A stretch of 64,000 nucleotides of DNA from NCBI GenBank assembly GCA_900016675.1, contig LN483072.1, forward strand, positions 558,001 through 622,000, in the 5' to 3' direction. A program made the position numbers and the translations under genes. The notes under the pieces are model-generated. The model worked only from the letters and a program-made list of their open reading frames with translations, was not told the DNA's origin and ran no database searches. This DNA comes from Arthrobacter saudimassiliensis (GTDB taxonomy: Bacteria > Actinomycetota > Actinomycetes > Actinomycetales > Micrococcaceae). Shown piece after piece: positions 31,890 through 61,045 of this stretch (positions are counted from its first letter, which is position 1; every line of letters begins with the position of its first letter).

Positions 31890-31895
31890 TACACT
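31890..31895 (+). promoter_or_regulatory. -10 hexamer of the riboswitch transcript
   Basis: TACACT lies about six bases before the first paired base of the Mn riboswitch, so transcription would start at the aptamer. Confidence 0.5.
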
Positions 31896-31900
31896 GGAGC

Positions 31901-32018
31901 GCTGAAGGGGAGTAGCTCCGAGACCGCCGGCCCTGCCGCGGTGTCGCGGCCTGTCGACATACTGGCCTGATCGGCCCGGCAGTCCACCCGCACGGCGGGC
32001 GAGCGAGACCTTCGGCCA
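31901..32018 (+). ncRNA. Manganese riboswitch (yybP-ykoY class)
   Basis: The two conserved loops of this class are present: GGGGAGTAGC in the first half (31907-31916) and GCGAGACCTT near the end. The closing stem P1 pairs GCTGAAGG (31901-31908) with CCTTCGGC (32009-32016), one G-U pair. Inner stems of GC-rich variable sequence lie between. In known members Mn2+ docks the two loops and turns on Mn export genes. It precedes a ferritin-like/VIT1 transporter gene by about 60 bp, so it should switch on metal export or storage when manganese is high. Confidence 0.88.
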
Positions 32019-32031
32019 GCAGTCGTACGCC

Positions 32032-32062
32032 GGCCGGAGCCCCCGTGTTGCCTGCTCCGGCC
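32032..32062 (+). promoter_or_regulatory. Expression-platform hairpin of the Mn riboswitch
   Basis: GGCCGGAGC (32032-32040) pairs perfectly with GCTCCGGCC (32054-32062), just before the ribosome binding site ACAGGAG at about 32066. It could act as a terminator or as a structure that gates translation; no T-tract is present, so the mode is open. Confidence 0.5.
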
Positions 32063-32076
32063 CTGACAGGAGCACA

Positions 32077-33204
32077 GTGAATCCCACCGCCGACACCCCG
32101 ACGCCCGGCGAAGAGCCCTCCCCCGAGCCCTCTGCCCAGGACATCCGCCGCTGGCGGCAGTACCTGGCCGACGAGCGGGCCGAAGCCGCAACCTACCGCT
32201 ACCTCGCCGACCGGCGGCAGGGCGAGGAGCGGGACATCCTGCTGCGGCTGGCCGATGCGGAAGGCCGGCATGAGGAGCATTGGCTGAAGCTGCTCGGAGG
32301 CCACGCCGACCAGCGGCTGCGCCCGTCCTGGCGCAACCGGCTGCTCGGGTTCCTGGCCCGCCGGTTCGGGTCCGTCTTCGTCCTGGCCCTCGCCCAGCGG
32401 GCGGAGGGCCGCTCCCCGTACAGCCGGGATCCCTCCGCCACCCCCGCCATGGCCGCTGACGAACAGATCCATGAAGAAGTCATCCGCGGCCTGGCCACCC
32501 GCGGGCGCACCCGGCTCTCCGGCAACTTCCGGGCCGCGGTGTTCGGCGCCAATGACGGCCTGGTCTCCAACCTGGCGCTGATCATGGGCATCGGCGCCAC
32601 CGGAGTCTCCAGCACCTTCATCCTGATCAGCGGGCTCTCCGGGCTGCTCTCCGGGGCGCTGTCGATGGGGGCCGGGGAGTATGTCTCGGTCCGCTCCCAG
32701 CGGGAGCTGCTGGACGCCTCGAAGCCCACGCAGATCACCCTCTCCGCGGCCAAGTCCCTGGACATCGACGCCAACGAGCTGGTGCTCATCTACCGCGCCC
32801 GGGGCATGAGCAAGGAAGCCGCGGAGCACCGCGCCGCCGAACGCATGGGCCTGTTCAGCTGCGACTGCGATCCGAGCCTGTCGCTGAACCCCGAGGCCGG
32901 GGACGCCGCCGACGAGTACGAAGAGGTCGGCACCGGGCTGGGCGCGGCGGTGTCCAGCTTCTGCTTCTTCGCCTCCGGAGCGATCGTGCCGGTGCTGCCG
33001 TACCTGTTCGGGCTGACCGGCATGACCGCCGTCGTCGTCTCCCTGGTCCTGGTCGGGCTGGCGCTGCTGTTCACCGGCGGCGTCGTCGGCCTGCTCTCCG
33101 GCACCTCCCCGCTGCTGCGGGGGCTGCGCCAGCTGGCCATCGGCTTCGGCGCCGCCGGCGTGACCTACGTGCTGGGCCTGGTCTTCGGCGTCGCCGTCGG
33201 CTAG
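32077..33204 (+). CDS. Ferritin-like/VIT1 family Mn2+/Fe2+ transporter (MbfA-like)
   Basis: 375-residue fusion. Residues about 22-145 form a rubrerythrin/ferritin-like domain with likely metal ligands in ADERAEAATY (Glu36), LADAEGRHEEHW (Glu62, His65) and ADEQIHEE (Glu129, His132). Residues about 148-375 are a VIT1/CCC1 transporter with the FGANDGLVSNLALIMGIGA signature, five transmembrane helices and a cytosolic metal-binding insert; a CDCD motif lies near 268. Membrane-bound ferritin (MbfA) proteins of this kind export iron in alphaproteobacteria. Here control by a Mn riboswitch points to manganese export or a dual role. GTG start, ACAGGAG ribosome binding site. Confidence 0.88.
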   Translation: MNPTADTPTPGEEPSPEPSAQDIRRWRQYLADERAEAATYRYLADRRQGEERDILLRLADAEGRHEEHWLKLLGGHADQRLRPSWRNRLLGFLARRFGSVFVLALAQRAEGRSPYSRDPSATPAMAADEQIHEEVIRGLATRGRTRLSGNFRAAVFGANDGLVSNLALIMGIGATGVSSTFILISGLSGLLSGALSMGAGEYVSVRSQRELLDASKPTQITLSAAKSLDIDANELVLIYRARGMSKEAAEHRAAERMGLFSCDCDPSLSLNPEAGDAADEYEEVGTGLGAAVSSFCFFASGAIVPVLPYLFGLTGMTAVVVSLVLVGLALLFTGGVVGLLSGTSPLLRGLRQLAIGFGAAGVTYVLGLVFGVAVG

Positions 33205-59758: not shown

Positions 59759-59769
59759 AGCTGTGCCTC

Positions 59770-59905
59770 TCCCTACGCCTACGAGGTGAGCTGTCGGGTT
59801 CGGATGGGAGTCACCCGGCTGGGCGGCGCGAAGCCGCTCAACTTAACCCCAAGGGCACCAAACGGTGCCCGAAAATTGGTTCCCCCGCCCCTGCCATGCG
59901 ATTGT
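59770..59905 (-). ncRNA. c-di-AMP riboswitch (ydaO/yuaA) of the NlpC/P60 operon
   Basis: On the minus strand the conserved blocks are GGGGCGGGGGAACCAATTTT (around 59874-59893), CGGGTGACTCCCATCCGAAC, and CCGAACCCGACAGCTCACC with CTCGTAGGC (59777-59803). These match the actinobacterial ydaO consensus. The element ends about 12 bp before the TTG start of the NlpC gene, so ribosome access or termination could be the output. Boundaries are approximate. Confidence 0.88.
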
Positions 59906-59985
59906 GCGAACGGACCTCGAACAGTGGCAGAGCTAGGCGATCTGCTCGAGGGTGCCTGGCCGTTGGGGTGCCGGGCACGGTGACG

Positions 59986-60805: not shown

Positions 60806-60814
60806 GTGGTTCCC

Positions 60815-60980
60815 TCTCTCAAGCCTGCGAAGTTAGCTGTCGGATTCGAGTGGAGAAACACTCGGCCTCCGGCCGGCAGCACGGCTGTTGCCATGCTGCT
60901 TGCTGTGGAGGCTTCACCCCGAGGCAGCGGCTGCTGCCAAAGAATTGGGTCCTCCGCCCCCGCCTGCGAACGGTATGGTG
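60815..60980 (-). ncRNA. c-di-AMP riboswitch (ydaO/yuaA) of the M23 peptidase gene
   Basis: On the minus strand the conserved blocks are GGGGGCGGAGGACCCAATTC (60941-60960), TCGGGGTGAAGCCTCC, and CGAATCCGACAGCTAAC followed by TTCGCAGGC (60823-60848). A variable GC-rich stem lies between. It ends about 10-15 bp before the TTG start. Boundaries are approximate. Confidence 0.9.
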
Positions 60981-61045
60981 CTCCGGCCCAACGGCAGGGT
61001 TAGGCATTTGGGCCGGATGACGATGGTGGTTCAGCGTCGTCAAAC

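Follow-up and report, generated by a model that had tools for sequence, protein, structure and literature searches.

The 64 kb stretch of contig LN483072.1 of Arthrobacter saudimassiliensis (family Micrococcaceae) analysed here, hereafter the window, whose positions give all coordinates below, carries a riboswitch of the yybP-ykoY class in front of a gene coding for a ferritin-like domain fused to a VIT1 transporter (ferritin-VIT). We consider it probable that this element is a Mn2+ riboswitch that turns expression on at high Mn2+ (Mn-ON), and that it controls a ferritin-VIT protein exporting Mn2+ and perhaps Fe2+. Manganese, and not only iron, would then be assigned to the widespread ferritin-VIT family, which suggests how a whole bacterial family in which MntP and GDT1 are almost absent may shed excess Mn2+. 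Actinobacterial yybP-ykoY leaders as such are already known, one of them being described before terC in Corynebacterium glutamicum (PMC3890552). A literature search brought up no report that connects VIT genes with a Mn2+ riboswitch; the 2015 publications on the targets of riboswitches (Dambach, Price) lay outside its scope and may contain an earlier mention. The exporter list of a 2022 manganese review leaves out the VIT family (PMC9334652).

The presence of a yybP-ykoY-type riboswitch at positions 31902–32015 is close to certain. This and all other features of the locus lie on the + strand. The RNA displays the four-way junction that characterizes the structural class, composed of P1.1/L1/P1.2, P2, P3.1/L3/P3.2 and P4. 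Helix P1.1, read from the sequence, pairs CUGAAGG with CCUUCGG (31902–31908 with 32009–32015). It is followed by loop L1, whose 5' side GGAGUA (31909–31914) and 3' side GAGA (32005–32008) are conserved in the aligned aptamers, and directly inside L1 by P1.2 (GCUC/GAGC). Loop L3, ACAUACU (31957–31963), is flanked by UGUCG and GGCC. A -10-like element TACACT (31890–31895), the probable promoter, ends 6 nucleotides (nt) 5' of the aptamer, and the hexamers TACACT, TAGAAT and TATGAT occupy the equivalent place in the leaders of relatives, as judged by eye. No pair of sigma-70 consensus -35/-10 elements was found upstream of the aptamer, so that a transcript start close to it is only likely. The ferritin-VIT gene (32077–33204) begins with GTG behind a good Shine-Dalgarno sequence and codes for 375 amino acids. 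An earlier interpretation of this DNA, the sequence-only reading, had described a complete aptamer with both loops and a closed P1 stem, starting near the transcript start and lying about 60 bp before the gene. The coordinates and loops are as it claimed and the distance to the GTG at 32077 is 61 nt; for the transcript start, the -10-like hexamer agrees with the claim and the missing consensus pair does not.

The curated Rfam model RF00080 yields a partial match to the window aptamer, at 15.9 bits against a gathering cut-off of 45 and covering P3/L3 only, and no match in the whole genome of the strain. Among 296 phylum genomes, one has a match above the cut-off and 10 have one at E 0.001. At E 0.1, two of ten element-bearing loci (the window's own and others before MntP, GDT1 or TerC genes) are matched, with 24.1 and 21 bits. 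This model being too weak for the lineage, two covariance models named R1 and R2 were built. Among the 30 best loci of the family, which include that of the window, 26 carry the element upstream of the gene and four (L020, L023, L025, L030) do not. Alignment A1 assembles these 26 elements, picked by a pattern that holds L1, with a structure placed by hand; 94.2% of its cells are paired and its covariation is 0.185, versus 0.066 in shuffled and at most 0.037 in slid alignments. A compensatory change from C-G to U-A is found in P1.2 of locus L013. R1 derives from A1 and contains the window sequence. Its genome counts are lower bounds, some 10–15 first-look candidates having been scored per genome; in the window's genome it has at least one match, the window element being the only one among the candidates scored.

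R2 was built without ferritin-VIT leaders to lessen circularity. It derives from 40 elements (alignment A4), none of them before ferritin-VIT and none being the window sequence, at loci that had been collected with R1. R2 matches the window element with 76 bits (E 5.9e-18) and, with E values of up to 1 allowed, nothing else in the 64 kb. It also recovers the same 26 of those 30 family loci plus the distant locus L225. Its best score in the 94 family loci judged element-free is 16.6 bits (E 0.23). Covariation in A4, an alignment fitted to the model, is 0.477 versus 0.145 when shuffled and at most 0.069 when slid. GGAGUA and AGA of L1 are found in 26/26 (A1) and 40/40 (A4) sequences, and the first G of the 3' side of L1 in 26/26 and 38/40, respectively. 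The sequence-only reading had proposed a covariance search and would have given way without a significant hit: RF00080 stays below its cut-off, an outcome overturned by the R2 match. The aptamer is a divergent, high-GC actinobacterial subtype of the yybP-ykoY class that scores below the Rfam cut-off. Since the curated model overlooks this subtype, manganese regulons of actinobacteria are likely under-annotated.

Mn2+ is very likely the ligand of the window aptamer. In the Xanthomonas oryzae aptamer, whose L3 reads ACA48UACU, A48 makes a Mn-specific contact through N7 (PMC6754395). The L3 of the window is identical to it, and A31959 is the equivalent of this adenine (A48 in X. oryzae, A41 in Lactococcus lactis). 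All 66 aligned aptamers, 26 of them in A1 and 40 in A4, keep the CA of L3 that includes the Mn-contacting adenine. R1 has matches in at least 20 of 296 phylum genomes and at least 22 of 248 order genomes. The genes behind 50 aptamers were assigned by blastp to representatives, Pfam being run on the representatives only. These 50 loci are not a random sample: 15, most of which have no listed ferritin-VIT match beside them, were chosen from the family R1 matches, and the other 35 come from the phylum or the order. Downstream genes code for GDT1 (GDT1/UPF0016) in 16 cases, Na/Ca-exchanger-like proteins in 14, TerC in eight, ferritin-VIT in six, MntP in two and a P-type ATPase in one. Three remain without blastp assignment, namely L075 (ferritin-VIT start at a contig end), L073 (broken ferritin-VIT copy) and L105; the latter, with 26 bits and no known family downstream, is likely a false match. 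The kinship with aptamers that precede GDT1, TerC, MntP, Na/Ca-exchanger-like and P-type ATPase genes makes Mn2+ the likely ligand, and for this exact RNA the assignment would follow from its class and its conservation.

The same comparison reveals riboswitches of the Mn2+ type across Actinomycetota (L087–L104, L106–L107, L110–L115, L117–L123, L072–L083), most of them missed by the Rfam cut-off, before GDT1, TerC, MntP, Na/Ca-exchanger-like and P-type ATPase genes. The Na/Ca-exchanger-like proteins (PF01699) are candidate Mn exporters that fall into a first group (L072, L076–L079, L081, L106, L107, L110) and a second one (L098, L100, L101, L103, L104). At L079 and L081 the adjoining gene encodes a DtxR-type metalloregulator (identified with Pfam for L079).

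The arrangement of the window recurs across the family, as found in the survey of riboswitches upstream of ferritin-VIT fusions that the sequence-only reading had suggested. R1 has at least 75 matches in at least 73 of 197 family genomes; 67 of the 75 precede ferritin-VIT, six a Na/Ca-exchanger-like gene and two a TerC gene. By coordinates, 62 of the 75 sit 43–256 nt 5' of the start of a ferritin-VIT match. Three more (L074, L080, L108) precede ferritin-VIT by sequence, and another two precede an incomplete ferritin-VIT start, one being cut by a contig end and one belonging to a broken copy. At L247 a contig end accounts for the lack of a protein match. In a distant group, L225 has the element some 70 nt upstream of the ATG, truncated where the contig ends. 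Locus sets overlap in strains, and locus counts are not counts of independent species. Note that an intact-looking aptamer stands before a broken ferritin-VIT copy at L073 (G133:C4), and that the same genome keeps another copy (L250), which has no element.

A tree was computed by a quick method from 104 of 182 loci, two of which were dropped by the program; the resulting 102 proteins include outgroups on long branches. The riboswitch label requires 12 changes on this tree versus a mean of 33.9 when shuffled. The riboswitch fills most of one main family branch, recurs through a second, and is found once in the third, at its base (L262). This spread suggests that the link between riboswitch and ferritin-VIT is old and was later lost in places, a direction that is not readable from the change counts themselves. 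The ferritin-VIT protein is matched in 197 of 197 family genomes at 1e-10, in 195 of them below 1e-130; the weakest matches are those of G087 (2.8e-70) and G082 (3.2e-20). MntP exceeds its cut-off in three of the 197 genomes (five at E 0.001) and GDT1 in none (one at E 0.001). Neither was found in the genome of the window.

The segment joining the aptamer to the gene has three elements that can pair in alternative ways. E1, CCUUCGGCCAG (32009–32019), consists of the P1.1 3' strand and an extension able to pair with E2, CCGGCCGGAGC (32030–32040), which is a partner of either E1 or E3. E3, GCUCCGGCC (32054–32062), leaves the Shine-Dalgarno sequence free when paired with E2 and blocks it when paired with the latter sequence, read as AGGAGC at 32068–32073. 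A set of 22 leaders of the window's type was compared, picked by the E2 pattern, with identical sequences removed, the outlier L262 excluded and the window's own L001 added. Their consensus is CCUUCGGYCAG for E1, CUGRCCGGA for E2 (CCGGCCGGA in the window) and UCCGGYC for E3, and GGAG of the Shine-Dalgarno sequence is present in 22 of 22. The helices E1:E2 (helix I), E2:E3 (helix II) and E3:Shine-Dalgarno (helix III) can each form and exclude one another. All 22 leaders can form 9 or 10 of the 10 pairs of helix I, 6–8 of the 8 of helix II and 4–5 of the 5 of helix III. The purine:pyrimidine (R:Y) position covaries across all three helices, 11 leaders having A with U and U, and 11 having G with C or U.

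Stabilization of P1.1 by Mn2+ is described for the L. lactis aptamer (PMC11087558), and in the Escherichia coli mntP leader the ribosome binding site is hidden without manganese (PMC11647493). Taken together, these two properties lead to the expectation that Mn2+ locks E1 and that the leader is an ON switch. At high cytoplasmic Mn2+, L1 and L3 would dock around the ion and lock P1.1, the E1 strand would become unavailable to E2, and E2 would pair with E3. With E3 held in this way the Shine-Dalgarno sequence would be open and the protein made, a control that would be mainly translational in the genus. The direction of switching is thus probably Mn-ON and the level probably translation. In L108 the P1.1 strand is shared with a hairpin followed by a U-run (read by eye), which fits a Mn-ON terminator version of the same logic.

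The protein has a VIT1 domain (PF01988) at residues 151–367 (5.4e-54). It is the sole Pfam match at 1e-3, the families MntP, GDT1, TerC and P-type ATPase not being matched, and the first 150 residues have no Pfam match at this threshold. The best named matches, with 80–83% identity, are from A. yangruifuii, A. koreensis, A. gandavensis and A. citreus. Residues E33, E62, H65, E110, E129, H132, D160 and M197 are invariant in an alignment of 50 proteins, in which that of the window stands beside 49 selected relatives with identities as low as 36%. The first six are putative metal ligands of the dimetal type. The AlphaFold2 model is helical (pLDDT 85.9); its closest solved folds are VIT1 6iu4 and 6iu3 (Foldseek E 2.8e-6 for 6iu4), and its match to a mini-bacterioferritin is weak (Foldseek probability 0.94, E 1.5). 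In the solved VIT1 chain, D160 is aligned with an Asp and M197 with a Met, which we take to be Asp43 and Met80. E36 and E133 adjoin the dimetal-type ligands in sequence. Of the 27 proteins compared from the family, 27 have E36 and 26 have E133, whether or not a riboswitch precedes their genes, versus 4 and 0 of 23 relatives from outside. The VIT1 half of the fusion announced by the sequence-only reading is certain, while its ferritin-like half is identified by the invariant ligands and the helical model and not by Pfam.

Manganese control of this ferritin-VIT branch is well founded, given an aptamer structure of the Mn2+ class, its kin before established or presumed exporters of Mn, and the recurrence in the family. 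Export of Mn2+ by the protein is likely because of this control and of the missing MntP and GDT1, whose place ferritin-VIT would take, perhaps moving Fe2+ too. The earlier proposal that the branch works on manganese or on both metals is therefore sustained for control by manganese, transport of Mn2+ keeping the rank of a deduction. Transporters of this type are described to handle the metal elsewhere: yeast Ccc1 moves iron and manganese, and Arabidopsis AtVIT1 let yeast store manganese (PMC3978347). That the ferritin-like domain uses manganese, for instance by sequestering Mn2+ ahead of export as the sequence-only reading had suggested, is a guess. The wider proposal, that ferritin-VIT of Micrococcaceae and their kin are a class of Mn2+ exporters whose dimetal site loads, gates or oxidises Mn2+ before export, is tentative and more doubtful than not.

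A different type of control may operate in a large clade without the riboswitch, Pseudarthrobacter being among the bacteria concerned. The sample of 154 family loci comprises 60 with riboswitch and 94 without the element. A conserved box of the sequence TTnRGGnnnnCC(G/T)AA, or a near variant, is found upstream at 74 of the 94 element-free loci versus 1 of the 60 riboswitch loci (shuffles give a mean of at most 0.1), in a count made on the same sequences from which the pattern was read. At the element-free loci that have it (L023 and 73 others) it is located upstream of the likely promoter, in most cases at a distance of 113–121 nt from the start of ferritin-VIT, and a second GAGGnnnnCC often follows it. 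The box rows form essentially one clade (29/30 rows; 5 changes on the tree). The box presumably resembles a site of the DtxR family. No copy with up to one mismatch was found near the window promoter, and from genome searches for further box sites no regulon emerged. The clades controlled by RNA and the box clade amount to a natural experiment in which the RNA sensor of the same gene is swapped for a possible protein sensor.

Several results, in addition to the poor performance of RF00080 on the window and its genome, weigh against Mn-ON control of a manganese exporter. At most 124 of the 197 family genomes have no R1 match among the candidates scored, and outside the family the element is missing at 27 of the 28 best ferritin-VIT loci. 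The survey of exporters across the family covered MntP and GDT1, so that other Mn exporters, of the TerC, cation diffusion facilitator (CDF), P-type ATPase or Na/Ca-exchanger families, may be present. Neither in 25 alignment columns checked first for residues that might mark Mn versus Fe use, nor over all columns within the family (17 versus 10 proteins), does any column separate the riboswitch-controlled from the other ferritin-VIT proteins. In seeds of the Atvit1 mutant the manganese pattern is reported to be unchanged (PMC3978347). The MbfA homologues of Bradyrhizobium and Agrobacterium, which carry a ferroxidase ferritin-like domain, are reported to be iron-induced iron exporters (PMC7762939, PMC7540006). 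An MbfA-like iron exporter could stand behind a riboswitch that senses Mn2+, lowering Fe2+ to reset the Mn/Fe ratio or guarding against iron freed by mismetallation, and the dimetal ligands that are invariant with or without the riboswitch are in line with this. We regard it as unlikely, because elsewhere the same aptamer precedes families used as Mn exporters and because the near absence of MntP and GDT1 from the family leaves a vacancy suited to a Mn exporter. It is far less probable still that the aptamer kept its fold while its ligand shifted to another divalent ion, such as Fe2+ or Co2+, the gene not being under manganese control. The failure of the Rfam model on the lineage would agree with such a shift, the Mn2+ assignment being itself drawn from sequence. 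It is opposed by GGAGUA and AGA of L1 and CA of L3, kept in 66 of 66 aptamers (those of A1 having been picked by the L1 pattern), and by the close kin before MntP and GDT1.

Folding calculations add to the points that speak against the switch as proposed. The leader is not more stable than its shuffles in plain folding (z -0.20). Two-state folding of 33 leaders (that of L015 with a doubtful start codon) gives a mean openness of the Shine-Dalgarno sequence of 0.37 in the bound versus 0.28 in the free state. This difference of 0.096 compares with 0.045 (standard deviation 0.148) in 200 shuffled controls from 20 leaders, and differences of at least 0.3 are seen in 4 of 33 leaders versus 6% of controls. 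So weak a signal, within the noise of the controls, leaves some room for other modes of action: Rho or transcription attenuation could be the main mechanism, or the aptamer could be an OFF switch, the Shine-Dalgarno sequence not being freed in either case. A Rho layer is reported for E. coli mntP (PMC11647493). Such modes of action are nevertheless improbable, given that three mutually exclusive helices reaching the Shine-Dalgarno sequence are kept in 22 leaders and that no terminator-like site was found between the window aptamer and the start codon. Mn-ON control of a ferritin-VIT exporter of Mn2+ is thus the explanation retained here.

The window has two further riboswitches, of the cyclic di-AMP (ydaO/yuaA) class, which exceed the Rfam cut-off at 59762–59918 and 60807–61016 (-). 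They precede genes that by eye resemble those of secreted cell-wall hydrolases, an ordinary association in actinobacteria.

The nearest described counterpart of the protein is MbfA of alpha-proteobacteria, the group to which the characterised MbfA exporters belong according to a 2020 review on iron. Likened by description, it too begins with a ferritin-like domain carrying Glu/His dimetal ligands, followed by a VIT1/CCC1 domain. MbfA is reported to be under the iron regulator Irr and to export iron, whereas the window gene is actinobacterial and stands behind a Mn2+-type riboswitch. Plant VIT1 (6iu3, 6iu4) and yeast CCC1 share the transporter fold of the window protein, but a ferritin-like domain is missing from the solved VIT1 chain of 234 residues, and both transporters fill vacuoles. 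On the RNA side, the MntP, GDT1, TerC and P-type ATPase genes of Actinomycetota have the same aptamer subtype in front of different protein families. The X. oryzae and L. lactis aptamers and the E. coli mntP leader share with the window the four-way junction, the P1.1 switch helix and L1 GGAGUA/GAGA, and in E. coli mntP the ribosome binding site is closed without manganese, as proposed for the window leader. The known yybP-ykoY systems have in common with it the Mn-contacting adenine of L3 and the position before metal exporters; what sets the window locus apart from them, besides its high-GC subtype and a score below the Rfam cut-off, is its target gene, a ferritin-VIT.

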